Below are positions 995-63,046 of a stretch of 64,000 bases of DNA, in pieces (within the stretch, counting starts at the first letter, position 1; each line of letters begins with the position of its first letter). A model generated the notes under the pieces. That model saw only the letters and a program-made list of their open reading frames with translations, made no database searches and was not told where the DNA came from. Origin of the DNA: Rugalucina vietnamica (Eukaryota > Mollusca > Bivalvia > Lucinida > Lucinidae); the NCBI GenBank assembly GCA_964017185.1, contig OZ024879.1:30228956-30292955 (forward strand), written 5' to 3'. A program made the position numbers and the translations under genes.

Positions 995-1194
995 CCCAAA
1001 TGGAGACTGACCTAGGTAGAAGATTTAAATGTCGTTATTGTGGCAAAGCTTTCCAAGAATCGAATAACATGAAAAGACATGAGAGAATTCATACTGGAGA
1101 GAAACCTTATAGTTGTGAGATCTGTGGGAAGTCTTTTTCAAGGAACGATAATTTGAAGGCACACCAAATTGTTCATTGGAAAACAACTTTGTGA
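995..1194 (+). CDS. ZE1: alternative terminal exon, two C2H2 fingers
   Basis: A long pyrimidine tract and CAG end at 994. The exon opens with two bases (CC) that complete a codon begun in an upstream exon, so it is phase 1. It then reads a short linker (METDLGRR), finger 1 (C-x2-C-x12-H-x3-H, helix ESNNMKR), the linker HTGEKPYS, finger 2 (helix RNDNLKA), five tail residues and TGA. At 65 codons with no internal donor it can only be a last exon. The ATG at 1000 is probably internal rather than a start. Role inferred: a swappable DNA-binding tail of a lola-type nuclear factor. Confidence 0.85.
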
Positions 1195-1715
1195 AAAATG
1201 ATGTGATATTACTTTTGTGAGAGAATTCTTGTCAGACAAAAACGTTTACGTTGTGAGCATTTCACGAAATATGAAAACAAAGATTTAATGACCACCAATC
1301 AGATCTCAGCTGTTGGTGAAAAACAAAACTTTAGACAAACATTCAAGCAAAATATAGTTTCATGACCTATACAGCATTTTTGAGAATTTCTTCGTGTTTC
1401 TAAGCAAAAGTGTGTGCTCAAATGTGTGTAACACTTTTCACAGGCCTTTAAGCTATTAAATTAGATTGGAAACCTAGAAAACAGGTATTCTGTTGTCCTT
1501 GATTATCTTGGATTTAACATTCTTTCATCACTTAAGGCCATGTTGAGACAAAGCTTCAGTTTGAAGTCACATCCAATATAATGGAGCAGTTAGTGATCAA
1601 ACATGCCATCCCTGGTTTACATTTTGAGTTGCTTAGCCACTACGCTACAGAAAAAAAAATCAATGTCTGATGATAGTTTTCATATTCACCTATATCTTTT
1701 TATGCCTTTTTGCAG
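1195..1715. repeat. 3' flank and intron, duplicated with the ZE2 flank
   Basis: The stretches after ZE1 (1195-1450) and ZE2 (1916-2300) share blocks such as a CTCAGCTGTTGG motif and a CTCAAATGTGTG motif. Exon and flank were therefore duplicated together. Bases 1225-1310 look like a further decayed finger tail. A pyrimidine tract precedes 1715. Confidence 0.5.
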
Positions 1716-1915
1716 CTCCAATGGAAAATAACTTAGATAGAAGGAACAAGTGCTATTACTGCAATAGAACTTTCCAAGACGCAAATAAAGTGAAAAGACA
1801 CGAAAGGGTCCATACCGGAGAGAAACCTTACAGCTGTGGGATCTGTGGAAAATCTTTTTCAAGGAACGATAATTTGAAAGCACACCAAATTGTTCATTGG
1901 AAAGCAACTCTTTGA
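1716..1915 (+). CDS. ZE2: alternative terminal exon, two C2H2 fingers
   Basis: The acceptor TTTTTGCAG ends at 1715 and the exon starts with CT in phase 1, then P-MENNLDRR. Finger 1 (helix DANKVKR) differs from ZE1. Finger 2 (RNDNLKA) and the tail HQIVHWKATL are almost identical to ZE1. The stop is TGA at 1913. It is a tandem paralogue of ZE1 whose changes concentrate in finger 1. An open frame running upstream from 1670 is only the pyrimidine tract read through. Confidence 0.85.
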
Positions 1916-2469
1916 AACATTGTGTGAAATTTCTTTTTTGAAAGAATTTTTGTGAGAGAAAAATCATAATTGTAATATTTTTACGAATTATGTTTGAAGT
2001 GAAAAATTAATGACAATCAACCAGTTTATTGTTAAAGCACATTGTAGAAGCCTCATTGGTGTCATGGTGAAACTAATCTCCTTGAAAGGAGTTAAACCTT
2101 TGATCCAGTCTTTAGGATTAGGCTTTAAATTGAGGTCTTGTCTTCATATGACCTCAGCTGTTGGGGAGATATGATACCTCAAAAGACGTGCATACAAACA
2201 AATGGTCATGTAGGGACTTTTCAGTGTATTTGAGGATCTTTGTGTTACTAAATACACTGTTTGCTGCTCAAATGTGTGAGACACGATCGGCGGACTGTGA
2301 AACAATAAAAAAGAGTTCCATATATTTTATAGTTGGAAATCTTGAAAAAAATTAAACTTTTGTTTCTGTTGAGTTAAGATTTAACAATCCATCATCATTT
2401 AAAGTACTACTGGGATAAAGCCTCACTTGTAAGTCATTTTATATACTGAAGTAGTATTACATTGCATTT
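1916..2469. other. flank of ZE2, no gene seen
   Basis: This holds the duplicated 3' flank shared with ZE1 and AT-rich sequence. The 64-codon frame at 2161-2355 has no domain and no splice logic, and is treated as chance. Confidence 0.4.
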
Positions 2470-2700
2470 CATTACAAAAACATGTTGTAAAAAATGAAAA
2501 TTTTTAGTGGAAATTTTTTGATGTTTTTCTTTTCTTTTTTCTTTTGCTCAAAACATAGATTGAGGCGGTTCTAACGAGTACCCACAATCTATATTTTGGA
2601 GCAAAATAAGATAAATAGGTATACCCCTGCAAACCCTAGTTTTACTACATAAAAGCGGAGTATAAGGGGGTATTTATTACACGGACATGTTTTTGTGATG
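2470..2700 (-). mobile_element. family A fold-back element, partial
   Basis: Contains the family A marks in reverse orientation: CATTAC-GAAAAC-like start, AACATAGATTG, GAGGCGGTTCTAACGAGTAC, AGGTATACCCCTGC and the end ACACGGACATGTTTTTGTGATG read in two pieces. One half of the central inverted repeat is missing. Confidence 0.75.
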
Positions 2701-2829
2701 CAAACCTGCGAGGCTTGGTTTACAAGATGAATGGTGTAAGAAATGCCAATCATGGCTCTTACTTTTTTTTCTTATGATATGGTTATCTTCCTTATTTCGT
2801 TTTATGTTTTGTTGTTATTTTTTTTTCAG

Positions 2830-3032
2830 CACGAATGGAGACTGATCATGACAGGAGATTTAAGTGCCAGTACTGTGGCAAATCTTTCCAAGATTCGTAT
2901 AAAGTGAAAAGACATGAGAGAATCCATACTGGAGAGAAACCTTACAGTTGTGAGACCTGTGGAAAATCTTTTACTACGAAGGAAGGGCATAGAGCACATC
3001 AAGTTACCCATCTGAGAAACATTTATCCGTAA
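2830..3032 (+). CDS. ZE3: alternative terminal exon, two C2H2 fingers
   Basis: The acceptor ...TTTTTTTCAG ends at 2829. The exon opens CA in phase 1, then R-METDHDRR, closely matching ZE1. Finger 1 (helix DSYKVKR) and finger 2 (TKEGHRA) both keep all zinc ligands, joined by HTGEKPYS. The tail LRNIYP ends in TAA. It belongs to the ZE1-ZE3 subgroup, but its finger 2 has been replaced or has diverged. AATAAA at 3590 could serve polyadenylation, about 560 bases on. Confidence 0.85.
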
Positions 3033-4861: not shown

Positions 4862-4978
4862 TCTGAACTCAAAGGGCTCAACCCACTGACTCTTTTTGAT
4901 AGATTGATGTTTATAAGTGTTGAACCTTAAGCTTAAAAGATTGTGACTCATTTCTGAAATAGTTTTAATATTTTGCAG

Positions 4979-5184
4979 GTCACCATCCACAACCTGTTGA
5001 CCCAAAATTACAGAAATATATGTGCCGCTTCTGTCAGAAAGTGTTCCCTGCTCCTTCAAAGTTAAAAGTTCACGAAAGAATCCATACTGGAGAGAAACCT
5101 TACAGTTGTGAGCTGTGTTCTAAATCATTTACTACTAAGGGAAGTTTGAAAGTTCATTCAATGGTTCATGGGAATTTCAACTAG
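4979..5184 (+). CDS. ZE4: alternative terminal exon, two C2H2 fingers
   Basis: The acceptor TTTTGCAG ends at 4978. The exon starts GT in phase 1 and reads HHPQPVDPKLQKY-type linker residues. Finger 1 is of the 'C-R-F-C-x-K-V-F-P-A-P-S' subgroup (helix APSKLKV) and finger 2 has helix TKGSLKV, joined by HTGEKPYS. The tail GNFN ends in TAG at 5182. AATAAA follows at 5189. There is no in-frame ATG near its start other than one inside the zinc knuckle, so it cannot be a stand-alone gene. Confidence 0.85.
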
Positions 5185-5224: not shown

Positions 5225-5700
5225 CATAAGAGGATTTCATTTTAGGAATCTGCTCATACAGATAATTCATACTGGAGAGAGACTACAGTTTTTATTATCT
5301 ACATCATTCTACATCAAAGGAAGTTTGAAAATTCATTCAATAGGTCATTGGAGTTTCAACATGTTGTCCTTAAGTTTTCTATATATCAGACTCCAGAAAG
5401 GAAGTGGGTGGTGGTGTTTTGTTTCTGAACAGGAACCTTTTAGTCAGTTGATAACAAAGAAAGTCTGTACAGTTATGTTTTATGTGCTTAATCATTGTCT
5501 ACCAAATGAAGCTTAAAAGAATGCTGGAAAGATCATTCAGTAGTTTAGGAGGCTTTTAACAAGTTCATAAATGTGAATTGTCTTCCAACATATAGGAAAA
5601 CAGGAACCTACTGAGAGATTTCGTACTTGAGAAAACCCTGTGATATAAATTATTTTCTAACAAATGAAATTTTAAAGCTGATGTATGATTGACAAAATGC
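5225..5700 (+). pseudogene. decayed tandem tails of ZE4
   Basis: 5265-5360 repeats the ZE4 finger-2 stretch (ATTCATACTGGAGAGAG, then a GGAAGTTTGAAA-ATTCATTCAA block), but the cysteines are lost to small indels. Two weaker echoes follow near 5480-5545 and 5600-5690. They are partial tandem duplications of the 3' half of ZE4. Confidence 0.6.
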
Positions 5701-7189: not shown

Positions 7190-7482
7190 GTATAACTTCA
7201 AAGGTGACAATCTCTGGCATAAAAGGCGTCAGATGTCGATTCTGTGGAAAGATATTTCCTGCTCCCTCAGTGTTAGCCGTTCATGAGAGAATCCATACTG
7301 GAGAGAAACCTTACAGTTGTGAGATCTGTGGGAAATCCTTCAACGACCCGTCATCATACCGTCGTCATGGTCGAGTACATACTGGAGAAAGACCTTATAA
7401 ATGTGACTTTTGTGGTCGATCCTTCTCCCAGAATTACGACTTGAAAGCTCACCAGATCATTCATATGAAAAACATGAAATAA
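7190..7482 (+). CDS. ZE5: alternative terminal exon, three C2H2 fingers
   Basis: The acceptor CTCTTTTAG ends at 7189. The exon starts GT in phase 1. After a 14-residue linker come finger 1 (C-R-F-C-G-K-I-F-P-A-P-S, helix APSVLAV), finger 2 (DPSSYRR) and finger 3 (QNYDLKA), joined by canonical HTGEKPY and HTGERPY linkers, then tail MKNMK and TAA. The D-P-S-S-x-R-R finger 2 is shared with ZE11 and ZE12, making these three a three-finger subgroup. Confidence 0.87.
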
Positions 7483-9388: not shown

Positions 9389-10078
9389 AAATAGCATATG
9401 ACCCTTCAAACGCCAGGGCTAAATGAAGAATAGAATATGACCCCTCTAAAGCCAGGGATAATTGAAGAATAGTATATGACCCCTCTTAAGCCAGGACTAT
9501 TTCAAGGAATAGAATATGACCCCTCTAAAGCGAGGACTTATTCAAAGAATAGTATATGAACCCTCTAAAGCCAGGGCTAATTGAAGAATAGTATATGACC
9601 GCTCATATGCCTGAGCTATTTGAAAAATAGTATATGACCCCTCTAAAGCCAGGACTTATTCAAGGAATAGAATATGACCCCTCTAAAGCCAGGGCTAATT
9701 GAAGAATAGTATATGAACCACAAAAGCCAGGGCCAGAATAGTATATGACCCCTTTAAAGCCAGGACTTATTCAAGGAATAGTATATGACCCCTCTAAAGC
9801 CAGGACGTATTCAAGGAATAGTAAATGACCCCTCTAAAGCCAGGACTTGTTCAAGGAATAGTATATGACCATTCTTAAGCCAGTACTTATTCAAGGAATA
9901 GTATATGACCCCTCTAAAGGCAGGGCCAATTGAAGAATAGTATATGACCCCTCTAAAGGCAGGGCCAATTGAAGAATAATAACCCCTCTAAAGCCTGGGC
10001 TAATTGAAGACCCCTCTAAAGCCAGGACTTACTCAAGGAATATTACATGACCCCTCTAAAGCCAGGACTTATTCAAGA
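9389..10078. repeat. minisatellite, about 38-bp unit, about 18 copies
   Basis: Units follow the pattern AATAGTATATGACCCCTCT, AAAGCCAGGACTTATTCAAGG with small substitutions and some shortened units near the end (10000-10020). Two unit variants alternate (ACTTATTCAAGGA and GCTAATTGAAGA). There are no unique spacers, so it is not a CRISPR array. Confidence 0.9.
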
Positions 10079-10293
10079 AGATCAGTCGATTTTGGATGAA
10101 ATTTGCAGTAAGAACTGGTAATAGAATTGAATGGATTATTGCCCAAAATTATTCTGATTTGTCTGTTTCGTTTATGGCTAAGTGTGCCAGTCAACAGCTA
10201 TGGTCATCTCGGGACGTTAGCACTGTCTAACGTGCAATGATGACACAAATTATTAACAACATACTGACTTCAGCTTTATTTCTCTTTTTTCAG

Positions 10294-10496
10294 GAAGACC
10301 AACTGAACAGGACCTGACTATCAGGAGATACTCCTGTCGTTTTTGTTCCAAGATTTTTCCCGCTCCATCCCTGGTGAAGAGACACGAGAGAATCCATACT
10401 GGAGAGAAACCATTTTGCTGCGTGACATGTTCAGCAAGGTTCAACACAAAGGCAAACCTACGGAGACATCAGCTTACACATATGGATGATATTTGA
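10294..10496 (+). CDS. ZE6: alternative terminal exon, two C2H2 fingers
   Basis: The acceptor TCTCTTTTTTCAG ends at 10293. The exon starts GA in phase 1 and continues RPTEQDLTIRR. Finger 1 is of the C-R-F-C-S-K-I-F-P-A-P-S type (helix APSLVKR). Finger 2 (C-V-T-C-S-A-R-F, helix TKANLRR) follows HTGEKPF. The tail MDDI ends in TGA at 10494. There is no start ATG. Because GA is the leftover pair, the upstream exon cannot end in T, which would make TGA. Confidence 0.85.
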
Positions 10497-12612: not shown

Positions 12613-12872
12613 GTCAACTGGTGGCCCATCAACGTGATGTTGCTCTAAAGACGTCATTCCAAGATCAAAGTCCAGCACACAGTGATCCACTTCTGAAAAT
12701 AACGTGTCGTTACTGCTTCAAGCTATTCCAGTCCCCGGCTCACTTGCGGCGACATGAAAAGACTCATACTGGAGAGAAACCTTTCAGTTGTGAGATTTGT
12801 GGAAAATCTTTCAGCACTAAAGATGGTGTGAAATCTCATCAGAGAACTCATATGGATAAATTTAAATTTTGA
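12613..12872 (+). CDS. ZE7: alternative terminal exon, two C2H2 fingers
   Basis: The acceptor TTTATTTTCAG ends at 12612. The exon starts GT in phase 1. A longer linker of about 35 residues (QLVAHQRDVALKTSF at its start) precedes finger 1 (C-R-Y-C-F-K-L-F, helix SPAHLRR) and finger 2 (TKDGVKS), joined by HTGEKPFS. The tail MDKFKF ends in TGA. It is a near-twin of ZE8, with identical finger-2 helix and linker architecture. Possible poly(A) signal AATAAA at 13131. Confidence 0.87.
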
Positions 12873-14695: not shown

Positions 14696-14955
14696 ATCAG
14701 CCGGTGGCCCATCAGCTTACTGTTGCTCTAAAGAAGCCTACCCAACAACTAAGTTCAGCACAGACTGACCAGCTTCTGAAAACAATGTGTCGTTACTGCT
14801 TCAAGCTATTCCAGTCCCCGGCTCACGTAAGGCGTCATGAGAAGACTCATACTGGAGAGAAACCTTACAGTTGTGAGATCTGTGGAAAATCTTTCAGCAC
14901 TAAAGATGGTGTGAAATCTCACCAAATCACACACATGGATAAATTTAAAATTTGA
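14696..14955 (+). CDS. ZE8: alternative terminal exon, two C2H2 fingers
   Basis: The acceptor ATTTTTTCAG ends at 14695. The exon starts AT in phase 1, then QPVAHQLTVALKKPT and the rest of a 37-residue linker. Finger 1 (C-R-Y-C-F-K-L-F, helix SPAHVRR) and finger 2 (TKDGVKS) have all ligands. The tail MDKFKI ends in TGA. Tandem duplicate of ZE7. AATAAA at 15005 is a close poly(A) candidate. The reading frame upstream of 14696 runs into family B sequence and is not coding. Confidence 0.87.
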
Positions 14956-15056: not shown

Positions 15057-15161
15057 ACTGGAGAGAAACCTTACAGTTGTGAGATATGTGGAAAATCTTT
15101 CAGCACAAAATATGGTGTGAAATCTCACCAGATTACTCGTATGGATAAGTTTAAATTATGA
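15057..15161 (+). pseudogene. finger-2-only copy of ZE8, first of four
   Basis: An open stretch reads [18 protein letters not shown] and on to MDKFKL and TGA, closely matching ZE8. Finger 1 and the acceptor are absent, and the last zinc-ligand His is Arg (QITR for QITH). Confidence 0.8.
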
Positions 15162-15241
15162 TTTAAATAACAGCTTCTTTTCTTCTAGACGGATCCCGTG
15201 ACTCAATGAGTTACATTTGACAACAGAGCATATAGTTCTAG

Positions 15242-15351
15242 TATCAGGATCCATACTGGAAAGAAACCTAACAAATGTGATATATATGGGACATCTTTCA
15301 GCACTTAAGATGGGGTGAAATCTCACCAGAAAATACACATGGATTAACTTG
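15242..15351 (+). pseudogene. finger-2-only copy of ZE8, second
   Basis: HTGKKPNKCDIYGTSF with the second Cys lost to Tyr, then TAA in the helix. The MD-LEF tail region and TGA are still recognisable. Confidence 0.75.
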
Positions 15352-15429
15352 AATTTTGATTTAATAGTTACTTATCTTGTAAATACACCATATAGCAAGT
15401 ATGCGAATTTTTGTGTAACACATTCGAAA

Positions 15430-15568
15430 GAGATGATAATAACCATACTGGAGAGAAACCTTAACTGGAGAGAAACCTTACAGATGTGAGGTCTGTTGGA
15501 AATCATTCCCTACATAAGAGGGTGTGATATCACTCCAGATAACACCCATTGGGAAACTTCAATTTTGA
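15430..15568 (+). pseudogene. finger-2-only copy of ZE8, third
   Basis: Carries ACTGGAGAGAAACCTTA twice in a row (15448 and 15464), then CEVCWKSFPT-like residues and a TAA. A 16-base slip duplication broke the linker. Confidence 0.75.
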
Positions 15569-15689
15569 TCGAAATAATCTTTTTTTATATGCTTTTATTA
15601 TATATATAGTATGGATAATTTTGAAACAGCTGAAAATAGTAGTCAAATTTTGTGCTTAAGTTGCAACTATTGAGTGACTAGCTCAGAAC

Positions 15690-15804
15690 CAAAGAACTAA
15701 GAATCCATATCGGAGAAAAACCTTGCAGTTGTGGGAAATCATTTAGCACCAAAAATGATGTGGAATCTCAACAGGTTACGCACATGGATAAACTTAAATT
15801 TTGA
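15690..15804 (+). pseudogene. finger-2-only copy of ZE8, fourth
   Basis: Degraded linker (ATCCATATCGGAGAAAAACC), then a knuckle shortened by deletion, and the MDKLKF tail with TGA. With the three copies before it this makes a tandem run at roughly 190-260-base steps. Confidence 0.75.
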
Positions 15805-18545: not shown

Positions 18546-18602
18546 ACTCTTGTATTACGTTGGTCTTAAAACGTTGATGGAAGCCACTGTACATGCACTT
18601 TG

Positions 18603-18748
18603 CATTACGAAAACTTGCCCATGCAATATACAGAACAGAGATTTTTAAAGTTGTAAAATATGAATATTTTCAGAAGAAAAATTTGATATTTTTTTCTTAT
18701 TTTTGCTCAAAACATAGATTGTGGGTACACATTAGAACCGCCTCGCTA
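18603..18748 (-). mobile_element. family A element, left half
   Basis: CATTACGAAAACTTGCCCAT start to GAACCGCCTCGCTAAG, where retroelement-related sequence takes over. Confidence 0.8.
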
Positions 18749-18845
18749 AGATTCAAAACAGGGGATAACATTTATTTTAGGAATATAAATAAGTATCAAA
18801 TCTTGGATGAATGCTACAAATTGTAGAATTTTGGTAGATAAGGAG

Positions 18846-21327: not shown

Positions 21328-21559
21328 ATAATCAGAGATGAAAACACCTCAGAAATTCCTGATGGCTATGTTCAGCTTGTCCCCGACCATGAAGTTTTTG
21401 TGCCAAGTAAATGGTTGAAACATGTAGAGGAATCGTTTGGCGACAAATCCATGACGTGGCGTCTGAAAAATCTTATTAGTGGAATGTTTGAGCCGGAGGA
21501 GATCATGAATAGTACAGCTGCAAGTTTGCTTCACACTCCAGTTGGCCGTGCTTTGAAAG
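21328..21559 (+). CDS. BEN module exon b
   Basis: The acceptor TTGTCCCCAG ends at 21327. It continues in phase 0 for 77 codons plus one base, with donor GTATAT at 21560. After an acidic lead it reads VFVPSKWLKHVEES, then WRLKNLISGMFEPEEIMNST, which fits the core of BEN domains (basic-hydrophobic helix, R-L-x2-L, then F-x2-E-E-(L/I)). BEN domains bind DNA or partners in BANP, NACC1 and insensitive. NACC1 pairs BTB with BEN, which suits a BTB-type upstream module. The family call comes from motif memory, not a profile search. Confidence 0.7.
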
Positions 21560-30097: not shown

Positions 30098-30318
30098 ATC
30101 AACAGAATGGTACTAAAGTCCAAAGCCTGAAGACATTATATGTATGCGGATTCTGTGAAAAAGTGTTTCCGGCTCCATCCAAGTTGACAGTTCATGAGAG
30201 AAGCCATACTGGAGAGAAACCTTACTGTTGTGTGGTTTGCGATAAACTATTCTCCAGAAAGTGGAGCTTAAAGAGACATCAAGCGGATCATTTTCATAAC
30301 GAAAACATGCTCGTGTAA
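30098..30318 (+). CDS. ZE9: alternative terminal exon, two fingers, TE-derived tail
   Basis: The acceptor CTAACATTGCAG ends at 30097, with a consensus branch site TACTAAC at 30070. The exon opens AT in phase 1, then QQNGTKVQSLKT. Finger 1 is C-G-F-C-E-K-V-F-P-A-P-S (helix APSKLTV). Finger 2 is C-V-V-C-D-K-L-F (helix RKWSLKR). After the last His the frame enters a family A element (start about 30295), giving the tail HNENMLV and a TAA at 30316. The last zinc ligand lies just before the insertion, so the finger is intact. Confidence 0.85.
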
Positions 30319-36500: not shown

Positions 36501-38012
36501 CTGACTTTCTTGTTGCTCAAATATTTAAAAGAACTTAAGATATAAGAGAAAAATCACTGGCAAATGAAGGGGGTATACCAATAAAAATATCTCATCGACA
36601 AAAAGCCCTAGAAAGCTGAAATTGGTATCAAATGATTGCTAAAATTGTGCTTTAAAACCACTTGGTAAGTCACTTAAACAATCTGACTTACTTTTTTGAA
36701 TATTGATAAAAACTTTAAATATTAGAGAAAAATCACAGAAAAGTGGAGGGGGTATACCACCAAAAAACTTAATACGTCAGCAGTCAAAAGATGGCTTAAA
36801 TTGGTATGAAATGATTGCAATGGTAATGTTCTATAATCATAAGATAAGATTTATGAAAAATTAGACTTTCTTAGTGTTTGAATATTGATGAAAACTTAAA
36901 ACATTAGATGAAAAATCACAGAAATGTATAGGGGGTATACCAAAGGAAACATATATATCTTAACAACCAAAAGTCCTAGAGAGCTGAAATTGGTATCAAA
37001 TAATTGATATGACAATATTCTATGACCATGTAAAAGGTATATATAGCAAGCTGACGTTTTTGCTGCTCAAAGAAAACTTATGATATAGGAGAAAAATCAC
37101 TGGCAAAGAAGGGGGTATATCAATAAAACTGCTGATATCTCAGTTACCAAAGGCTATACAGAGCTGAAATTGTTATAAAATGATTGCTATGACAATATTC
37201 TATAACCATGCAACAAGTATATAAACAAGCTGACTTTCTTGTTTCTCAAATATTTAAAAGAACTTAAGATATAAGAGAAAAATCACTTGCAAATGAAGGG
37301 GGTATACCAATAAAACTGCTACTATCTCAATGACAGACAGTATAGAAAGCTGAAATTGGTATCAAATGATTGCTAAGATAATGTTCTAAAATCACGTGGT
37401 AAGACACACAAACAACCTGACTTACTTTTTTCGAATATTGATAAAAACTATAAATATTAGAGAAAAATCACAGAAAAAAAGTGGAGGGGGTATACCACAA
37501 AAAAATCTTTATAACTCGGCAACCAAAAGTTATAGAGAGCCGAAATTGGTATCAAATGATTGCTATGGTATTGCTATATAATCATAGGATAAGATTTATG
37601 AAAAACTAGGCGTTCTTAGTGTTGAATATTGATGAGAACTTAAAATATTAGATAAAAATGACAGAAAAATAGAGGGGGTATACCAACAGAAACGTTTATA
37701 TCTCAGCAGCCAAAAGTCCTAGAGAGCTAAAATTGGTATCAAATGATTGATATGACAATAACTGATAGCCATGTTATATAATAAGACATATGAACAAGCT
37801 GACTATCTTGTTCATAAAATTGAAGAAAACTTAAGATATAAGAGAAAAAAAGGGGGTATATTAGAATAAACTCGAAGATTTTAACCATAAAGCTACCACC
37901 TAGAAAGGTCCCCCCGATTTTATCTAATTCTATTCATGCCAAAATTGTCAAAAAGGGCGGGGGGATCTGTTCAGGTCAGGTGGTACCGACATCTTAAATA
38001 GCTCATGGACCA
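33575..38012. mobile_element. Harbinger-like non-autonomous element, 4.4 kb, satellite-bearing
   Basis: Terminal inverted repeats begin TGGTCCATGAGC at 33575 and end GCTCATGGACCA at 38012. GGTACCATCTGGCCTGAACA and its complement lie further in. The flanks show a three-base TAA duplication inside a D repeat whose uninterrupted form elsewhere is GCAGTAATAGC. A TAA/TTA duplication is the habit of PIF/Harbinger transposons. There is no transposase. Most of the interior is a satellite. Confidence 0.75.
34480..37870. repeat. satellite, about 188-bp unit, about 18 copies
   Basis: The landmark GGGGGTATACC recurs at about 35061, 35246, 35433, 35626, 35816, 36008, 36195, 36383, 36567, 36747, 36930, 37110, 37297, 37484 and 37673. 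Each unit also has CTCAGC(A)ACCAAAAG, AATTGGTATCAAATGATTGC and GAGAAAAATCAC. Units are diverged, so this is an old array. Confidence 0.9.
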
Positions 38013-38153: not shown

Positions 38154-38362
38154 ATATATACCCAAATACCCTTGGGCAAGGAGTGAAGAAAAATATATGC
38201 CGGTTCTGTCAGAAAGCATGCCCAACTCCATCAAAGTTGATTGTACATGAGCGAATTCATACAGGAGAGAAACCTTTCAGTTGTGAAATTTGTGGGAAAT
38301 CTTTTGCCAGAAAGGAAAGTTTGACATCTCACCAACTGGTTCACATGAACTTCAAGATTTGA
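38154..38362 (+). CDS. ZE10: alternative terminal exon, two C2H2 fingers
   Basis: The acceptor TCATATTTTTCAG ends at 38153. The exon opens AT in phase 1 and reads IYPNTLGQGVKKN. Finger 1 is C-R-F-C-Q-K-A-C-P-T-P-S (helix TPSKLIV). Its conserved core Phe is Cys, which may weaken the fold. Finger 2 (RKESLTS) is canonical after HTGEKPFS. The tail MNFKI ends in TGA at 38360. No start codon precedes the fingers. Closest to ZE4. Confidence 0.84.
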
Positions 38363-38675: not shown

Positions 38676-39756
38676 TAATTAAATTGTTGCACTTTAATCC
38701 AATGTTTTAAAGGACGTCTTCGTTTTGATTTTGTGTCCAACAATGACATGAAATAAAGACGGCACATAGAATAACACTGTTAATCCCCAAATTTATTTTT
38801 CTAATTATCCTAAATCAAAGAAAATGTCGGCTGGCAAAGAACATATAAAACATTTTGAATTTGCATGCATGTATATTTTAAGTTCTGAGACTGTGTTGAT
38901 ATGTCAATGTTATTCCAAAATGGATATGCAAGTGCCGCCCGTTCCAAATCAGCCTAAGACTTTTCGTTTCCCACAACGTACATTCGGTGTGAAAAATCCC
39001 AGAAAAAAGAAGTTTCCAACCTTCTTGGTTTGACGAGTTGAAAGATCTCGCGTTTTGTCATTTTTGTATGTTGGCTTATAGGGACGGAAAGTTAAACAGC
39101 CTGAATCTAGACAAAGCTTACATCACAAATGGTTTTTCCAACTGGAAAGATGCGTGTGCTTCGTTCAGAAAACATGAGTCTTCGAATTGCCATAAAGAGT
39201 CAGTGCTTAAGGTAGAGACTTTGCCCAGAACCTGCGGGGACATTGGTGAAAAACTGTCAAAGCAACACGCTGATGAGAAAAGTGACAATCGCAACTGCCT
39301 GAGAAAGATTCTATCCAGTATTCGGTTTCTTGCGCGTCAGGGAATATCTTTACGTGGTGACGGTGATGAGAGTGATGGGAATTACATTCAGATTCTGAAG
39401 GTTCGCGGTGGAGATGATTCACATATTCTAGAGTGGTTAAAACGCAAGAACGATAAATACACTTGTGCTGACTCTCAAAATGAAATCACCGATGATAATT
39501 CTTCCTCTTTTAATTGCCTGATTTCGGTCGTTTTTGTCAACAAAAACGAACAAAATTTGGACCCACAAACGCATTCAGATCGCGTTTAAAAGCACCAATT
39601 TATCAAAATTTTCTCGGGGGAGACCCCCCGAAACCCCCTTACCAGAGGGGGGTATCCCCCTTCTCGTGCTCGCCCCCCGCTCGTGCCTTCGGCACTAGAA
39701 CATGTCTTCCGCCGGACCACTTTTTAAATCGTGGCGACGGCCCTTTTAAAGGGCAT
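38676..39756 (+). mobile_element. hAT/ZMYM1-like fragment nested in the RT element
   Basis: 38920-39010 reads PKTFRFPQRTFGVKNPR and, after a one-base shift, WFDELKDLAFCHFC. The main open frame (39038-39589) has the TTF-type zinc finger pattern (C-x2-C, then FSNWKDA and FRKHESSNCHKES). This N-terminal layout is known from ZMYM1-like proteins and hAT transposase relatives. The transposase-like body is missing. A GC-rich coda (39600-39680) with AGACCCCCCGAAACCCCC follows. Confidence 0.65.
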
Positions 39757-41400
39757 TAAAAAACTATGGTTCACTTTATTTGGCATGTAATGACAGAAAG
39801 GCTTTTTTCACATCCTCTGACCAAAGTCGGTATACACTTTGGTCATGTCAGAATGTGTGCGACGCCTTATCCTATCTCCTGGATAATATTTATATTAGAT
39901 TTGGGACCAGGTTATACAGACAAATTGTTGGAATTCCGATGGGTACAAATTGCGCACCTCTCGTAGCTGATTTATTTTTATACTGCTACGAAAGAGATTT
40001 CATGGATTCTCTTAACCATGATAATCAAGCTGATGTTATCGAGGCTTTTAATTCCACTTCTAGGTACCTCGATGACCTTTTGAACATTGACAACCCTTAT
40101 TTTGAAGGTATGGTCAATCAAATTTATCCATCTGAACTACAGTTGAACAAAGCCAATATCTCGGATACCGAAGCCCCCTTTTTAGATCTACATCTTTCTG
40201 TTGCAAATGGATTTGTTTCTTCTAAAATTTATGATAAGCGCGATGACTTTGATTTTGATATTGTAAATTTTCCGTTTTTGGATGGTGACGTTCCTCGTCG
40301 TGCTTCTTATGGTGTTTACATTTCGCAACTTATTAGGTTTGCTAGAGTCTGCAATCATGTTACAGACTTCAACGCTCGAAATAAATCTTTAACGGCCAAA
40401 CTTCTCCAACAGGGCTATCGGTATCATAAACTTCGAAAAACCTTTTCTAAATTTTATCGTAGACACTATGAATTGATTTCCAAATATAATGTTGGGTTAA
40501 AGACGCTTTTAAGTGAGGGTCTTTCGGAACCAGAATTTTATGGTGACTTGGTTTACAAATTTAAGAAACTTATAGGAAGTAAAGATTTTTCTTTTCAGTT
40601 TAGAAAAATCATAACACGTTACAGACGTATAGGTTATAACTTGAATGTTATGCGACAGTCTGCATGCTTAGTTTTTAACCCAATCACGGTTGATAACTAT
40701 GCTGCCTTCTTTAATTGCACGCCGGTGGGTCGGGCGTCAGACTCTATGATGGCCCCGACTTAAAGCTATTCATTTTAGTTGGTTGGGGCCGGAGCTTCTT
40801 GTCTGTTGCTTGGCCCACCGGGGTCCAACTGATGTTTTTCTTTAGCTCCGGAGTTAGTAAGTTATTTGGCGCCCAGGGATCTCCATCGTCGGGCAGCTTA
40901 CTGAATCTGTGAGTCCTGGTTTTTGATTCATCAGGATGTTTATCATGATTTATTTGTTTGTTCTTGATGATTCATTTACTAGTTAGAGATTCACCACGAG
41001 GACCGAAGAACTAACTAAATGTTATGAACCACTGCAGAAGCTGAGGGTGAGGTTACGGCCGTGTAAAATCGATTTAAACCCGCCAGTAACTTTGTGTTAC
41101 TGATCGTTCCAAGTCGATACTTCTGTGGTGGTTCTTTTTGTTTTATGTCTTGGTGTTTAAAATATTTTTGTGCTGTTGGCGCCTTATGTATGTTTGCATA
41201 TTTTTAGTTAAGTTAAGGTAACTGAGTGGCCACCTATTGGGAAAATAGCTGCTCATTCGGCTTACGAAATGTTTTCATGGTATAAGTACCTGATTGTTAG
41301 TTTGGTTTTTTCCCACCTTGGTTTTTGGAGTGGGAGTCTTTTTCTGATTGCGCCTTTTCCTGATATTTGCCTACTTGTACTTTTTTTCCCATATGTTATT
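39757..41400 (+). mobile_element. RT retroelement (family C), main 3' part
   Basis: The open frame 39780-40763 has reverse-transcriptase motifs G-I-P-M-G-T-N-C-A-P and the catalytic box Y-L-D-D-L. It then reads YGVYISQLIRFARVCN and a basic C-terminal part ending SDSMMAPT. About 640 bases of 3' tail follow. The family could be Penelope-like or another non-LTR class; I cannot decide. Truncated copies lie at 12100 (-), 18846 (+) and 57525 (-). Confidence 0.8.
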
Positions 41401-42978: not shown

Positions 42979-43307
42979 GCAACACTGAAGGATGCAAGAA
43001 AAGTTTATACAAATGTCGTGTCTGTCAGAAGATATTCTCAATACCATCATCCCTAACCAGACATGAGAGGATCCATACTGGAGAGAAACCTTACAAATGT
43101 TTGATCTGTGGGATGAAGTTCTGCGATCCGTCGTCATGGAGACGTCACAAAGGAGTGCATACTGGAGAAAAACCTTACAAATGTGAAATTTGTAATAAAA
43201 GTTTTCGTCGAAAAAGTTGTGTACAGAGACACCTTAAACAGCATATTGATTACGAAAACTTGCCCATGCAATATCCTGTGATTTTTGTTTCAGCTAATAA
43301 AAAATAA
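42979..43307 (+). CDS. ZE11: alternative terminal exon, three fingers, TE-derived tail
   Basis: The acceptor TTATTATTATTAG ends at 42978 and has few C. The exon opens GC in phase 1, then [10 protein letters not shown]. Fingers: C-R-V-C-Q-K-I-F (helix IPSSLTR), C-L-I-C-G-M-K-F (DPSSWRR) and C-E-I-C-N-K-S-F (RKSCVQR), joined by two HTGEKPYK linkers. After the last His the frame runs into a family A element (from 43249). The final 20 residues ([18 protein letters not shown] included) are transposon-derived, ending in TAA. Confidence 0.86.
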
Positions 43308-43582: not shown

Positions 43583-43715
43583 GATGGTGATAGAGGGGTT
43601 AAATGTCGTCACTGTGGCAAATCTTTCCAAACTTCATAGAAAGTGAAAAGACACGAAACCTTACGCTTGTGAGGTCTGTGGGAAGAAGATCAGTGATCAA
43701 ACATCATGTGATTTT
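43583..43715 (+). pseudogene. decayed ZE1-ZE3-type exon
   Basis: GTTAAATGTCGTCACTGTGG, CAAATCTTTCCAAACTTCAT, AGAAAGTGAAAAGACACGA is a finger 1 of the ZE1-ZE3 group with a stop in the helix. The HTGEK linker is deleted, and a broken finger 2 (TGTGAGGTCTGTGGGAAGA) follows. It is far from its relatives at the left edge. Confidence 0.75.
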
Positions 43716-46131: not shown

Positions 46132-46400
46132 GAAGACTCAAAAGAGGTTTTTACATGTGCCGCTTCTGTCAAAAAATAGTCCCATCTCCATCAGTGCTTG
46201 CTAAGCATGAGAGGATTCATACAGGAGAGAAACCTTACAGTTGTGAGATCTGTGGGAAAAGATTCAGTGATCCGTCGTCATGGAGACGTCACAAAAGAGT
46301 GCATACTGGGGAGACACCTTATAAATGTGAAATTTGCTTAAAAGGGTTTAAACGAACTAGGGATTTGCAGAACCACATCAGACAACATACTTCTTATTAA
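46132..46400 (+). CDS. ZE12: alternative terminal exon, three C2H2 fingers
   Basis: The acceptor TTTATTTGTAG ends at 46131. The exon opens GA in phase 1, then RLKRGFY. Fingers: C-R-F-C-Q-K-I-V-P-S-P-S (helix SPSVLAK; the core Phe is Val), C-E-I-C-G-K-R-F (DPSSWRR) and C-E-I-C-L-K-G-F (RTRDLQN), with linkers HTGEKPYS and HTGETPYK. The tail TSY ends in TAA. Sister of ZE11 and ZE5. AATAAA at 46729 is a possible poly(A) signal. Confidence 0.87.
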
Positions 46401-47250: not shown

Positions 47251-47465
47251 GCCAACGAATATCTGATAACCATTGCTGTAACGTTTGCGGAATGATGTTT
47301 TCAAACCTATCAAGACTAAAGAGACACGATATTATACATACTGGAGAGAAACCCTACAGTTGTGTGACTTGTTCTAGAATATTCAATAGGAAGGAAAATT
47401 TGCGACGACATCAGTTAATTCATGTGGACAAAGCGTGTTTGATTCCCAGTAACGATTCCCAGTAA
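47251..47465 (+). CDS. ZE13: alternative terminal exon, two C2H2 fingers
   Basis: The acceptor TGCTTTCTTACAG ends at 47250. The exon opens GC in phase 1, then QRISDNHC. Finger 1 is C-N-V-C-G-M-M-F (helix NLSRLKR). Finger 2 is C-V-T-C-S-R-I-F (helix RKENLRR), after HTGEKPYS. The tail VDKACLIPSNDSQ runs into a 13-base minisatellite, whose second unit provides the TAA at 47463. AATAAA at 47681. There is no usable start codon, so it depends on an upstream exon. Confidence 0.84.
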
Positions 47466-48991: not shown

Positions 48992-49278
48992 AGTCTGTAG
49001 TGACCAAGGTGGGTGGAGTAACGTGTGAAATGTTCCAATGTCTAAAATGTATGAAGAAATTCGACAACCGGTATAAGATAAAGAGGCACGTGTCAATACA
49101 TGCTAAAGATTTCATCCGCTGGCCATGTTTCCGATGTGGAAAGACATACAGCACAGATAGGGGGTTGACAGATCATAAATGTGAAGGAAAAAGTAATGAA
49201 AAAAAAATACATAAGAATCCCCCAATAATTGATGTTATATATTATGATAATCATTGGCATGGCACGGTCCCTACATGA
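48992..49278 (+). CDS. ZE14: alternative terminal exon, atypical fingers
   Basis: The acceptor TCTCTATTTCAG ends at 48991. The exon opens AG in phase 1, then SVVTKVGGVTCEM. Finger 1 is C-L-K-C-M-K-K-F (helix NRYKIKR, His-x3-His). Finger 2 is C-F-R-C-G-K-T-Y (helix TDRGLTD) and ends H-K-C, a Cys two residues after the His instead of a His three to five later. The C-terminus (NPPIIDVIYYDNHWHGTVPT) lacks the CxxC domain found in ZE16 and seems truncated. AG as the leftover pair again excludes T as the upstream base. Confidence 0.8.
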
Positions 49279-50520: not shown

Positions 50521-50789
50521 GATCAAGGGTTACCGGTGTTTATAGATGTAATTTCTGTGGGAAAATGTTTCCCGACCTTTTTCAAGTTAAGAGACACGAG
50601 AGAACACATACTGGAGAGAAACCGTACAGCTGTGACTGTGGGGCGAAGTTTAGTGATCGATCATCAGCCAGGAGACACGTGGCTACACATACTGTGGGAC
50701 TGTCACTAGAGTGTAAACTGTGTTTGACATTGTGTGAAACTAATTATAATCTACAAAATCATCTTATAGGACATATGAATGGTTTGTAA
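50521..50789 (+). CDS. ZE15: alternative terminal exon, three fingers, one with C-x-C
   Basis: The acceptor CTATCTGTTCTAG ends at 50520. The exon opens GA in phase 1, then SRVTGVY. Finger 1 is C-N-F-C-G-K-M-F (helix DLFQVKR). Finger 2 reads S-C-D-C-G-A-K-F (helix DRSSARR): only one residue separates its two Cys, where the family has two or more. Finger 3 is C-K-L-C-L-T-L-C (helix TNYNLQN) with its core Phe as Cys. The linker before finger 3 is HTVGLSLE, not HTGEKP. The tail MNGL ends in TAA. Confidence 0.83.
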
Positions 50790-51225: not shown

Positions 51226-51433
51226 AAAAGAAATTTGATCGCTCATGGATGTCACGGAAAGCAAGGAAAATGAATTGTTCGAGAATTGGTGTTACAAATT
51301 ACGTTATTGGTGCAGCCAATGCTCAAGAGGTATAAACAGATTTTCTGAGCCGAATCCAATAGTTTATGTTTGTGGGCGGCCAGTAGCGCTGAAGAATGAC
51401 TTGTCAAAGTTTGAAAATCAGGGGAAGAAATGA
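51226..51433 (+). pseudogene. C-terminal remnant of a ZE16-type exon
   Basis: The open stretch reads KLRYWCSQCSRGINRFSEPN then VYVCGRPVALKND and stops at TGA. It aligns with the ZE16 C-terminal domain (YWCEYCSKGVIGISDS, then CNNCYQPVSLKK). Its second CxxC is reduced to CG, and the fingers and acceptor are missing, apparently cut off by the family A copy just before. Confidence 0.7.
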
Positions 51434-52828: not shown

Positions 52829-53322
52829 AGTCTGTAGTGTCCAAGGTTGGTGGAGTAACGTGTGAAATGTTCCAATGTCTAAAATGTATGAAGCAATTCG
52901 ACAACCGGTATAAGATAAAGAGACACGTGTCAATACATGCTAAAGTTTTCATCCGCTGGCCATGTTTCCGTTGTGGCAAGGTATACAGCACAGAGAGGGG
53001 GTTGACAGCTCATAAATGCGATGGAAAAAGTAAATGGTCATGTGTCCACTGTGGAAAGACATACAATACAAAGAAGGGTTTGGCAGCTCATAAGTGCGAT
53101 GGAAAAAGTAAAGAAAAAAGCAAAGATTATCCAAGACTTGATGCTACACATTATGAGAAGACGTATCCTTACTGGTGCGAATATTGCTCAAAGGGTGTCA
53201 TTGGAATTTCGGACTCGAGAAACGTTGAAGTAAAATGTAATAATTGTTATCAGCCCGTATCTCTAAAGAAAACAATGCCAAAGCCAAAGCGAGGAAAACA
53301 GAAAAAGACACAAAAAGATTAA
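52829..53322 (+). CDS. ZE16: longest terminal exon, fingers plus CxxC domain
   Basis: The acceptor TCTCTTTTTCAG ends at 52828. The exon opens AG in phase 1, then SVVSKVGGVTCEM as in ZE14. Domains in order: a C2H2 finger (helix NRYKIKR); two similar C-x2-C-x12-H-K-C units (helices TERGLTA and TKKGLAA), the second an internal duplication that ZE14 lacks; a linker with repeated K-S-K; a C-x2-C-x17-C-x2-C unit (WCEYC ... CNNC) that could bind zinc like a ribbon; and a Lys-rich end (KPKRGKQKKTQKD) that may help nuclear entry. TAA at 53320. It has 163 complete codons plus the stop, about twice its neighbours. Confidence 0.85.
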
Positions 53323-55708: not shown

Positions 55709-55917
55709 GAACCATGGATTTACAACAAGGCTCGATGAAGCGTACGGTATACAGCTGCCTTTACTGTGGCAAGATATTTGAGCGGCAAGATCACATGGTC
55801 AGACACGTGAGAATTCATACTGGAGAAAAACCGTGGTCATGTGACTCATGTGGGCGGAGATTTAATACGAAAGATGGATTGAAAAGTCACCAGTTAACGC
55901 ATCTCAAAATGAGATAA
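55709..55917 (+). CDS. ZE17: alternative terminal exon, two C2H2 fingers
   Basis: The acceptor TTTTTATCTTACAG ends at 55708. The exon opens GA in phase 1, then [13 protein letters not shown]. Finger 1 is C-L-Y-C-G-K-I-F (helix RQDHMVR) and finger 2 is C-D-S-C-G-R-R-F (helix TKDGLKS), joined by HTGEKPWS. The tail LKMR ends in TAA. The ATG at 55714 sits within four codons of the acceptor, so a start here is possible, but the splice phase fits the array. Confidence 0.86.
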
Positions 55918-55949
55918 CATTATTGGAAAAATGGACAGTGATAAATTGG

Positions 55950-56275
55950 GGTGGGATGTAACGCAAAAGATGGACTGAAAATTCACCAATTAACTCATCT
56001 AAAATTTAAGGAACAATAGTGATACGTCTGTGGAAAAATATTTATATTGGTGTGAAAACGACTGTTTTTGATGGAGTATTGTGTTGTATTTTGGGTCATG
56101 TGATACATACTGGAGAAGACTTCAGAAAAGATGGATTGATAAGTCACCAATAAACGCATCTATAAAGGTGATTTAGAACAAAAAAACTTTCGTCACGTGA
56201 TACATGTTGGCGATGATGGAACACGAATGACGGATACCAACTCGCCAATTAACGCATATTAAAATGTGGCGAACA
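55950..56275 (+). pseudogene. three decayed tails of ZE17
   Basis: ACGCAAAAGATGGACTGAAA (55960), AAAGATGGATTGATAAGTCA (56127) and ACTCGCCAATTAACGCAT (56240) are eroded copies of the ZE17 finger-2 helix and the HQLTHLK region, at steps of about 110-170 bases. Confidence 0.7.
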
Positions 56276-56964: not shown

Positions 56965-57266
56965 GTCTTTAGATGTTAGTACAGAATGCAATATCATCAA
57001 AAGACGATGGCTGTATGCCCAGCTCTTCTCGACAGATGGCAGACAATGAAGGATCCACAGAGGATTTCACCGCCAGGCAAAACATAAGACATGTACAGCA
57101 CTTTACATGCCCAATATGTTCCAGAAGGTTTAAATACAACTGGTTGTTAACATGACATATGTATTTACAGACCGGGGCAAAACCTCATAAATGTTTGCAT
57201 TGTTATTATTCCTCCAGCAGAAAAGATGAAATAAAACGGCATATTGTCGTACGCCACATGAACTAG
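56965..57266 (+). pseudogene. lola-type two-finger exon with two nonsense codons
   Basis: From the acceptor at 56964 the phase-1 frame meets TAG at once (gt-CTT-TAG). It then stays open from ATG 56973: an acidic linker, a finger start (C-P-I-C-S-R-R-F, helix region KYNWLLT), TGA at 57153 where an Arg codon CGA is expected, and then a second finger (C-L-H-C-Y-Y-S-S-S-R-K-D-E-I-K-R-H-x4-H) to TAG. The finger pair resembles insect lola tails more than the other exons do. Two single-base changes would explain the loss. Confidence 0.65.
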
Positions 57267-57524: not shown

Positions 57525-58259
57525 GTACAAGTAGGCAAAGATCAGGAAAAGGCGCAATCAGAAAAAGATTCCCACTCCAAAAACCGAGGTGGGAAAAAAC
57601 CAAACTAACAGTCAGGTACTTATACCATGAAACATAATCGTAAGCCGAATGAGCAGCTATTTTCCCAATAGGTGGCCACTCAGTTACCTTAACTTAACTA
57701 AAAATATGAAAACATACATAAGGCGCCAACAGCACAAAAAATGTTATACACCAAGACATAAAACAAAAAGAACCACCACAGAAGTATCGACTTGGAACGA
57801 TCAGTAACACAAAGTTACTGGCGGGCTTAAACCGGTTTTACATGGCCATAACCTCACCCTCAGCTTCTGCAGTGGTTCATAACATTTAGTTAGTTATTTG
57901 GTCCTCGTGGTGAATCTCTAACTAGTCAATGAATCATCAAGAACAAACAAATAAATCATGATAAACATCCTGATGAATCAAAAACCAGGACTCACAGACT
58001 GAGTAAGCTGCCCGACGATGGAGATCCCTGGGCGCCGAATAACCTACTAACTCCGGAGCAAAAGAAAAACACCAGTTGGACCCCGGTGGGCCAAGCAACA
58101 GACAAGAAGCTCCGGCCCCAACGAACTAAAATGAATAGCTTTATGTCGGGGCCATCATAGAGTCTGACGCCCGACCCACCGGCGTGCAATTAAAGAAGGC
58201 AGCATAGTTATCAACCATGATTGGGTTAAAAACTAAGCATGCAGACTGTCGCATAACAT
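57525..58259 (-). mobile_element. family C RT retroelement, 3' fragment, reverse
   Basis: The complement of 40640-41395, including the last codons (NVMRQSACLVFNPI, SDSMMAPT) and the whole 3' tail to GCCTACTTGTACC. Close to the copy at 39757, so fairly recent. Confidence 0.88.
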
Positions 58260-58265
58260 TTAAGT

Positions 58266-60139: not shown

Positions 60140-60329
60140 GCCCCATTAGGGTGAAATTAACCTGTCATGATTCCTTATCCTTGATTCGATTCGACAACGT
60201 ACATGTACATAACAAACATAAGTAATAAACCTTAGACATGTTTTCTGTTCATTAAGACTTCACAAATAGTCAAAATCCTCACAAACCTTCCATTGGCGGT
60301 CCAATAATCATGATACTATCATGATACAA
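60140..60329. other. flank, nothing recognised
   Basis: No supported feature. Confidence 0.3.
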
Positions 60330-60437
60330 CCCAGCGGGCACATGACGTCACAATGACGTCATATCAACGTCGATGCGACGTCATGAAGTAGCATCGACGT
60401 CGATCTGACGTCATTCTGACGTCATGTGCCTGCTGGG
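60330..60437. mobile_element. 108-bp palindromic MITE rich in TGACGTCA
   Basis: CCCAGCGGGCACATGACGTC and the near complement at the right end (GACGTCATGTGCCTGCTGGG). Four TGACGTCA palindromes (about 60343, 60353, 60407 and 60418) plus a CGACGTCATG. Confidence 0.8.
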
Positions 60438-60628
60438 ATATAATCATGATTCTAGGCCAACCTTGACCCATAAAACATGACATACAAGTTTCGACACATT
60501 ATACCATCATGTTTAAAAAGATATCATCTTTGGACTTGTCAGTACATTGACTATACCGCCACCAAATTAATGCGACGTTTTTTGGCATATATCACACATG
60601 TAAAAAGCTGCGAATGGCACTTGTGTGT

Positions 60629-62592
60629 TTTTAGCTCACCTGAGCCATTAGGCTCACAAGGTGAGCTTATAGGATGCCCATGATCCGGCGTCCGTTCGTC
60701 CGTCGTCGTCGTCCACCATTTTCAAAGATCTTCTTCTCTGAAACGGCTTGGCCAATCAAAGCCAAATTTTATATGAAGCATCTATAGGAAGGGGGAACCA
60801 ATGTATATATAAATAATCCAGGTCACATGACCAAGATGGCCGCCATACCCATATATGGTAAAAACCTTTAAAATCTTCTTCTCCAGAAACCAAAGGCCTA
60901 AGATCTTGAAACTTGGCATGTAGCATAAGTGACTCAAGGTCCACAATGTGTATATAAATAATGACCTTAGGATGACCTTGACCTATTTTACGGCAAGGTC
61001 AACATAGGTTGCCAATGCATTTGGATGGGGAAAACTTTTAAAATGTCATTTTAAGTGAAAGTGTAACAGGAAATGGGCAGTAGGACTTAATATTAATGAT
61101 TCTGAAAAAAATTGGACCCCAGGGGCTCATTTGCCCCAGCCCCGGGGCATTATACATGTATATCTCCATAATATTCAAACATCTTCTCCTCTGAAACGGC
61201 ATGGCCAATCAAAGCCCAATTTTTTATGAAGCATCTATAGGAAGGGGGAACCAATGTATATATAAATAATCCAGGTCACATGACCAAGGTGGCCGCCATG
61301 CCCATATATGGTAAAAACCTTTAAAATTCTTCTTCTCCAGAACCCAAAGGCCTAGGATCTTGAAACTTGGCATGTAGCATAAGTGACTCAAGGTCCACAA
61401 TGTATATATAAATAATGACCTTAGGATGACCTTGACCTATTTTACGGCAAGGTCAACATAGGTTGCCAATGCATTTGAATGGGGAAAACTTTTAAAATGT
61501 CATTTAAAGTGAAAGTCTAACAGGAAATGGGCAGTAGGACTGAATATTTATGATTCTGAAAATATGGGACCCCAGGGGCTCATATGCCCCCGACCCGGGG
61601 CAATATACATGTATATCTCCATAATATTCAAACATCTTCTCCTCTGAAACGGCTTGGCCAATCAAAGCCAAATTTAATATGAAGCATCTATAGGAAGGGG
61701 GAACCAATGTATATATAAATAATCCAGGTCACATGACCAAGATGGCCGCCATACCCATATATGGTAAAAACCTTTAAAAATCTTCTTCTCCAGAAACCAA
61801 AGGCCTAGGATCTTGAAACTTGGCATGTAGCATAAGTGACTCAAGGTCCATAACGTATATATAACAAATGACCTTAGGATGACCTTGACCTATTTTACGG
61901 CAAGGTCAACATAGGTTGCCAATGCATTTGAATGGGGAAAACTTTTGAAATGTCATTTAAAGTGAAAGTCTTGCAGGAAATGCACAGTAGGACTGAATAT
62001 TAATGATTCTAAAAAAGATTGGTCCCCTGGAGCTCATATGCCCCCACCCTGGGGCAGTATACATGTATATTTCCATAATATTCAAACATCTTCTCCTCTG
62101 AAACCACTTGGCCAATCAAAGCCAAATTTTATGTGAAGCAACTATAGGATGGGGTAACCAATGTATATGTAAATAATCCAGGTCACATGACCAAGATGGT
62201 CGCCATGCCCATATATGGTAAAAACCCTTCAAAAATCTTCTTCTACGGAACCGGTGGACCGATTTCAAAGAAACTTGGCATGAAGCATTGATGGCTAAAT
62301 TACTACAATGTATATATAAATCATGACCCTGTGGTGACCTTGACCTATTTGACGACAAGGTCAACATAGGTTGCCAATGTATTTGAATGGGGAAAACTGT
62401 TAAAATGTCATTTGAAGGGAATAAATTAAATAGAAATTGGCAAATGGACAGAATATTGATTATTCTGAAAACAAATGGCCCAAGGGCTTCATCTACCCAC
62501 TGGGCTAAATACCATAATATTCAAACATGTTTATTGGCATATGTAGCAGATCTCAGGTGAGCGTTTACAGGACCATTGGTCCTCTGGTTTAT
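60629..62592. mobile_element. 2-kb element with four 454-bp tandem units
   Basis: The left end has TTTAGCTCACCTGAGCC and the right end has TCTCAGGTGAGCG as inverted repeats. Inside, a unit with CTCTGAAACGGC(T/A)TGGCC, GGTCACATGACCAAGATGGC and GATGACCTTGACCTATTTTA recurs at about 60735, 61190, 61640 and 62095. The AGCTCACCTGAG end is one I associate with bivalve genomes. Confidence 0.88.
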
Positions 62593-62816
62593 AAATGTAA
62601 TTTACTCGGGTATATAAGTTTGAAGCCAAGTCATAAAGTTCTATGATTTATACATCGAAACCGAGACATTGTATCATATGTTTCTCATAAGTAAAGATCA
62701 TGTTTGTTACGCAATCTGAATTTTCTGTACTTTGCTTTACATCCCCAATGGCTGCATCTCACATATGATAGTATTTCAGCTGCACTATTCTAATTGCTAG
62801 CTCTCTGTCGTTTCAG
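62593..62816. other. intron before ZE18
   Basis: Non-coding, ending in CTCTCTGTCGTTTCAG. Confidence 0.4.
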
Positions 62817-63046
62817 GTAAAGGGCGGACATCGGTGCAGACATGTCTTGCCACAAAAGACACAGCTTCGTCTAGTCGAGTAAATGCCTGTAGATACTGCG
62901 AGAAGTCGTTCGTGTGGAAGTCACACTTAGTGATGCATGAGAGAATACATACTGGAGTTAGACCTTATTCATGTGAAATATGTGCTAAATCTTTTACACA
63001 AAAATCCCATCTAAGAACTCATATGATGAGACACATACTAAGCTAA
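62817..63046 (+). CDS. ZE18: alternative terminal exon, two C2H2 fingers
   Basis: The acceptor CTGTCGTTTCAG ends at 62816. The exon opens GT in phase 1, then [19 protein letters not shown]. Finger 1 is C-R-Y-C-E-K-S-F (helix WKSHLVM), with linker HTGVRPYS, and finger 2 is C-E-I-C-A-K-S-F (helix QKSHLRT). The tail ILS ends in TAA. Not close to any other exon here. It is the last one in view, and the array may continue to the right. Confidence 0.86.

Follow-up and report, generated by a model that had tools for sequence, protein, structure and literature searches.

Zinc-finger exons on one strand of the locus

We analysed a stretch of 64,000 bases (36% G+C; hereafter the window) of contig OZ024879.1 from the bivalve Rugalucina vietnamica, which holds an array of exons encoding C2H2 zinc fingers. 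Across the whole window, strict C2H2 motifs were found 37 times on the forward strand and not once on the reverse strand, while dinucleotide shuffles (n=60) gave an average of 0.017 such motifs for both strands together. The forward-strand motifs group into 18 open exons, and a stop codon closes the frame in every one of them (18/18; Table 1). These exons lie where a first-pass annotation of the same DNA had placed them, all on one strand. That annotation described each as two or three fingers followed by a stop; the stop holds throughout and the finger count for 16 of the 18, whereas the exons starting at 48992 and 52829 (exons are named below by their first base) carry one motif together with atypical ones. 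None has the layout of multi-finger zinc-finger genes, with many fingers in a single exon per gene. When 11 of the 18 exons were compared with Pfam, a C2H2-type family came out on top in each, just under the cut-off for exon 48992. The helix residues at positions -1, 2, 3 and 6 differ in most exons and are identical between 12613 and 14696.

Table 1 Features of the zinc-finger exon array. Starts of terminal exons are first exon bases, taken from the acceptors as re-read here.
Feature	Position	Strand	Description
Terminal exon 1	995..1194	+	two C2H2 fingers, phase-1 acceptor
Terminal exon 2	1716..1915	+	two fingers; close copy of exon 1
Terminal exon 3	2830..3032	+	two fingers; exons 1 and 2 are its nearest relatives
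Terminal exon 4	4979..5184	+	two fingers, CRFC..FPAPS type
Terminal exon 5	7190..7482	+	three fingers; no in-frame ATG ahead of fingers
Terminal exon 6	10294..10496	+	two fingers, no ATG
Terminal exon 7	12613..12872	+	two fingers, no ATG
Terminal exon 8	14696..14955	+	two fingers; close copy of exon 7
Terminal exon 9	30098..30318	+	two fingers, no ATG
Terminal exon 10	38154..38362	+	two fingers, no ATG
Terminal exon 11	42979..43307	+	three fingers; C-terminal tail resembling an interspersed repeat
Terminal exon 12	46132..46400	+	three fingers; acceptor 46132 or 46114, phase 1 either way
Terminal exon 13	47251..47465	+	two fingers, no ATG
Terminal exon 14	48992..49278	+	one C2H2-like and one C2HC-like finger; Pfam scores slightly below cut-offs
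Terminal exon 15	50521..50789	+	three fingers; finger 2 with odd C-x-C spacing
Terminal exon 16	52829..53322	+	longest exon, 163 aa; copy of exon 14 with inner 78-base duplication
Terminal exon 17	55709..55917	+	two fingers
Terminal exon 18	62817..63046	+	two fingers, no ATG
Internal exon, possibly BEN domain	21328..21559	+	phase-0 acceptor, phase-1 donor, last base G
Decayed 19th exon	56965..57266	+	phase-1 acceptor (13.4), linker, two fingers, final stop
Four decayed second-finger copies in a row downstream of exon 8	15057..15801	+	starts 15057, 15246, 15419, 15700
Decayed relic of 2830-type exon	43589..43663	+	

A common acceptor phase and exons without a start codon

As candidate acceptors we took all AG dinucleotides no more than 140 bases from an exon's first cysteine, and ranked them with a simple pyrimidine-tract score of our own. 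In all 18 exons the best acceptor from which the frame stays open was in phase 1, leaving two bases before the first codon, just as had been annotated. For exon 4979 a slightly higher-scoring acceptor exists, but the frame is closed from there, and for exon 46132 the alternative site at 46114 scores slightly higher. At random anchors outside the exons (n=4000), an open acceptor with a score of at least 5 was met in 11% of cases, with the three phases about evenly represented (0.31/0.37/0.33). The first-pass annotation had argued that a given phase would be expected by chance in about a third of the exons. This overstates the case: since the exons are copies of one another, their 18 phases are not independent events, and the common phase is partly a matter of inheritance.

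Counting ATG only, there is no start codon between the preceding in-frame stop and finger 1 in seven of the 18 exons (7190, 10294, 12613, 30098, 38154, 47251 and 62817). Having no ATG of their own, these exons are predicted to be usable only when joined to coding sequence, and if they are used at all they must be spliced to something upstream. A start codon had previously been thought missing from the fourth, sixth, tenth and thirteenth exons, which is correct except for the fourth (4979), where an ATG stands just before the first cysteine. The exons also constrain the base to which they could be joined. Their first two bases are GA in four cases and AG in two, so that a preceding T would create a stop in six of the 18, which leaves A, C or G as the last base of a common donor. 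Furthermore, the 521 bases between exons 1 and 2 leave little room for private 5' exons.

Constraint, duplication and decay among the exons

The rate of nonsynonymous change (dN) was lower than that of synonymous change (dS) in all nine exon pairs that we chose from the 153 available and compared with NG86, with ratios of ~0.12 to 0.6, and the same was true of the five pairs for which YN00 returned values. Similarity between the paired loci fades with distance from the exon. Of the nine pairs, six exceeded the random-pair maximum of 0.42 in the nearest 150 intron bases and one did so in the 150 bases downstream; 150-300 bases upstream of the exons, pair similarity was 0.18-0.40, near that of random pairs (mean 0.29). 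Close copies are mostly neighbours (995/1716, 12613/14696 and 48992/52829), an exon and its nearest relative being on average 4.3 ranks apart against 6.3 in permutations (P ~0.04), although a rank correlation over all exon pairs was not significant (P 0.11). In the exon tree, three of 15 inner branches were well supported. Three reciprocal pairs stand in the same order in the two halves of the array (4979/38154, 7190/46132 and 14696/55709); as there are only three, we do not claim a colinear duplication of array halves.

Next to the intact exons lie decayed ones, which were missing from the earlier exon list. The most complete is a 19th copy, with two in-frame stops and one zinc-binding histidine lost; its acceptor score is exceeded by only three of the 18 open exons. 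Relics of single second fingers are found behind exon 14696 (15057-15801), exon 4979 (5265-5560) and exon 55709 (55918-56162), with others elsewhere. Behind these three exons the decayed second fingers retain their tails, as if finger 2 and the 3' sequence had been duplicated independently. A finger relic at 67-171 suggests that the array continues leftward beyond the window. Self-similar repeats make up 42% of the window, and the C-terminal end encoded by exon 42979 seems to derive from one of them, since 43242-43304 is repeat-like and recurs at five further places in the window with E <0.01. Exon 52829 has a cysteine-rich, possibly ribbon-like end (WCEYC...CNNC) after its inner duplication, and 51305-51409 may be a relic of this end (E 0.0007).

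An internal exon with a phase-1 donor

The first-pass annotation held that the 5' module to which the finger exons would be joined was not in view. This is perhaps partly wrong, as between exon 8 and exon 9 we noticed an internal exon, 21328-21559, that ends in a G and has a phase-1 donor compatible with the ten downstream exons. It spans 232 bases and 77 codons, overlaps no self-repeat, and has an acceptor score of 8.6 and a donor score of 2.3. Stretches with an acceptor of at least 8, a donor of at least 2 and at least 70 open codons averaged 0.12 per strand in the shuffles (3/60 had one); these cut-offs were set after the exon had been seen, and its rarity is therefore overstated. The forward strand of the window has four such framed stretches (210-600 bases) and the reverse strand none. 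Two of the four fall within terminal exons, one within an open reading frame (ORF) that we take to be reverse-transcriptase-like, and the fourth is the exon itself. Judged from its sequence, it is the best non-repeat candidate that we noticed for an exon donating to the downstream tails.

The exon carries a pattern that resembles the BEN domain; Pfam, NCBIfam and VIA-align did not confirm it. Pfam listed no BEN family at E up to 10 (its filters remove most matches above ~0.1), NCBIfam listed nothing, and VIA-align returned no BEN among 57 chains. A phmmer search against solved structures gave only two weak rows, both primase (E 0.71). In a single-sequence structural model the exon folds into two strands followed by five helices, but with a mean pLDDT of 49. 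With this model as query, the first two of 27 Foldseek rows were NACC1 BEN chains (E 0.48 and 0.99), and NACC1 accounted for five of the 27, none of them significant. The BEN domain of NACC1 is described as having N-terminal strands and five helices (PMC11472053). On this weak evidence, the exon possibly encodes a BEN domain.

The acceptor of the internal exon is in phase 0, and it is therefore not a cassette fed by the same kind of phase-1 donor that would serve the tails. Its own upstream partner may lie to the left of the window, because no large coding exon was noticed between exon 8 and the internal exon; small exons are possible there. The sole forward-strand ORF of at least 75 codons in that interval, 18578-18826, has no Pfam match, and two further framed stretches are ~41 codons long.

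Alternative tails of one gene or separate genes

Taken together, these observations make it likely that the exons are alternative 3' ends of a single transcription-factor gene, arranged either as one array or as two sub-arrays in succession. In such a gene, a shared upstream coding part would end in a phase-1 donor with a last base other than T. Each mRNA would join this part to a single tail, chosen from 18 or more terminal exons. Besides a short linker, the terminal exon would contribute C2H2 fingers, in most cases two or three, that have recognition residues of their own, followed by a stop codon and, presumably, a separate poly(A) site; the choice of exon would decide the DNA to which the shared part is brought. 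Were the internal exon the donor, exons 9-18 would be served in cis, while exons 1-8 would depend on another phase-1 donor exon to the left or on trans-splicing. The arrangement suggests two consecutive sub-arrays, because the donor at 21328 cannot serve the eight upstream exons in cis.

Several points weigh against alternative tails of one gene. A single internal donor is unable to serve both sides in cis, and the splicing of the exons is a prediction from the sequence of one genome. Duplication can pass on a common phase without that phase being used. An in-frame ATG precedes finger 1 in 11 of the 18 exons, inside the exon in nine of them and only upstream of the acceptor in exons 42979 and 50521. 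The exons had been annotated as having no donor, which is only roughly right: in a listing of donors with a score of at least 0.8, thinned to one stretch per 400 bases, weak donor-like sites fall within six exons (7190, 12613, 14696, 48992, 52829 and 55709), and in 48992 a weak one (0.9) is located after the fingers. Poly(A) hexamers are no closer to the exons than expected by chance (median 306 versus 300 bases), and no 8-mer shared near the exons rises above background. Finally, several of the dS values approach or exceed 1 and are hence rough, and YN00 gave no values for four of the nine pairs.

The strongest competitor, which we nevertheless judge unlikely, is a cluster of separate small zinc-finger genes, products of tandem duplication that would each have a private promoter and short private 5' exons. 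Phase 1 would then be common by descent and need no shared 5' part, close copies would be expected to sit side by side, as they do, and 11 exons have an in-frame ATG ahead of finger 1. The seven exons without an ATG do not fit this picture. Nor does the small number of strong-site framed stretches on the forward strand, where the four found are accounted for by the terminal exons, the reverse-transcriptase-like ORF and the internal exon, even if small private exons could still be present.

Trans-splicing of separately promoted terminal exons, after the manner of mod(mdg4), is a version of the preferred explanation more than a full alternative to it, and we give it a lower probability still. 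It would allow a single donor exon to serve exons on both its sides. Yet with all 18 exons on the same strand, joining in cis would suffice downstream of a donor, and nothing in the window points to promoters. Among eight insect species, moreover, trans-splicing of the mod(mdg4) kind is reported as the only such event conserved across orders (PMC4667647). That the array is largely dead, a set of decaying duplicated finger exons with few or none in use, is the least credible account: one complete decayed copy, several finger relics and the high repeat content speak for it, but 18 frames are open, their acceptors share one phase, dN is below dS in each pair compared, and the decayed copies illustrate how such exons look once constraint is gone.

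Comparison with known arrays of alternative tails

The first-pass annotation likened the locus to lola of insects. Lola is described as having 20 isoforms, 17 of them with different C2H2 fingers, made by joining BTB-coding common exons to many 3' exons through cis- and trans-splicing (PMC11426971, PMC1947980). The two loci share an array of alternative 3' zinc-finger exons, a likeness of sequence layout only. In lola the common part carries a BTB domain of the TTK type, which is reported as not found outside Arthropoda (PMC11426971). In contrast, no BTB was noticed in our window, where tblastn with two BTB query sequences gave a best E of 0.13, and a possible BEN-like exon lies inside the array. 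The layout itself, many alternative 3' exons for DNA-binding parts that would be joined in a single phase, is supported by the sequence and by the seven ATG-less exons; kinship to lola does not follow from it. If its exons are spliced, the array would work like lola by analogy.

Like the present array, mod(mdg4) has many alternative 3' exons: its common 5' exons are joined, with trans-splicing, to tails that distinguish at least 30 isoforms and are mostly of the FLYWCH type (PMC12692577, PMC4667647). It differs in those tails, some of which lie on the opposite strand, from the C2H2 tails on a single strand found here; FLYWCH was absent from the Pfam families listed for 11 of the 18 exons (eight complete lists and three of the best 25). 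NACC1 combines an N-terminal BTB with a C-terminal BEN domain (PMC7764960). If the internal exon encodes BEN, the locus would resemble NACC1 and NACC2 in involving a BEN protein part; an array of alternative finger tails does not feature in that description of NACC1. In the oyster, also a mollusc, a transcription-factor family of the zinc-finger class has likewise expanded in clusters (BTBGC1 and BTBGC2), but these are described as separate duplicated BTB genes (PMC12111275) rather than alternative tails of one gene.

A bolder form of the one-gene explanation, which we regard as doubtful, is that the locus is an independent, non-arthropod switchboard of the lola kind that uses BEN instead of, or besides, BTB. 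A donor to the left would serve exons 1-8 and the BEN-like exon at 21328 would serve exons 9-18. A common start would then pick the BEN exon first and a finger tail second, and the linkers of the finger exons might complete the last BEN helix.

Searches for relatives elsewhere did not reveal a similar array. In protein searches with nine joined exons (best 120 of 844 matches) and with one three-finger exon (best 120 of 675), no relative of the array appeared; the matches listed were zinc-finger proteins, mostly multi-finger ones, and these searches could hardly have shown a relative, because the summed fingers of such proteins swamp the results. Among the best 120 of 844 we noticed four BTB-family rows, all ZBTB17 of one fish. 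With exon 52829 as query, one weak row was obtained (E 0.0084, of 125 candidates). When viral contigs were scanned for the internal exon, for exon 4 and for a degenerate pattern, no relative turned up, bacterial contigs lying outside the scan. Among the papers listed in literature searches (for example, 25 of 38 and 12 of 766 matches), we found no such arrays or BEN-finger proteins outside arthropods; most subscription papers are outside this coverage, and we do not claim absence in print.

To our knowledge, a few arthropod loci have arrays of alternative DNA-binding tails. If a comparable array exists in another phylum, this route from a single start to many transcription factors would have evolved repeatedly, and one could test which of its features (phase, tail spacing, trans-splicing or BTB) are needed. 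The multimerising BTB type of lola and mod(mdg4) is itself reported to be arthropod-specific (PMC11426971). With intact, decayed and fragmentary exons side by side, the locus also illustrates the growth and decay of such arrays. The seven start-less exons could easily escape gene finders.

Other features of the window

No tRNA was found in the window. Two matches to Rfam SECIS_1 above the gathering score, at 40738-40805 (+, 39 bits) and 58099-58166 (-, 35.2 bits), are located in two copies of one repeat with similar ORFs (40744-40971 and 57933-58160). We set them aside, as they are probably a hairpin of the repeat element and not a selenoprotein signal. The first lies at the end of the ORF at 39750-40763, the putative reverse-transcriptase-like one mentioned above, for which Pfam gave no match. 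Another ORF, 38993-39589 (198 aa), matches DUF4371 and a probable zinc finger in Pfam at scores under the cut-offs and resembles a fragment of a hAT-type transposase. Large tandem arrays lie between the exons at 60721-62486 (period 453), 34704-37760 (187/382) and 9390-10079 (40 bases).

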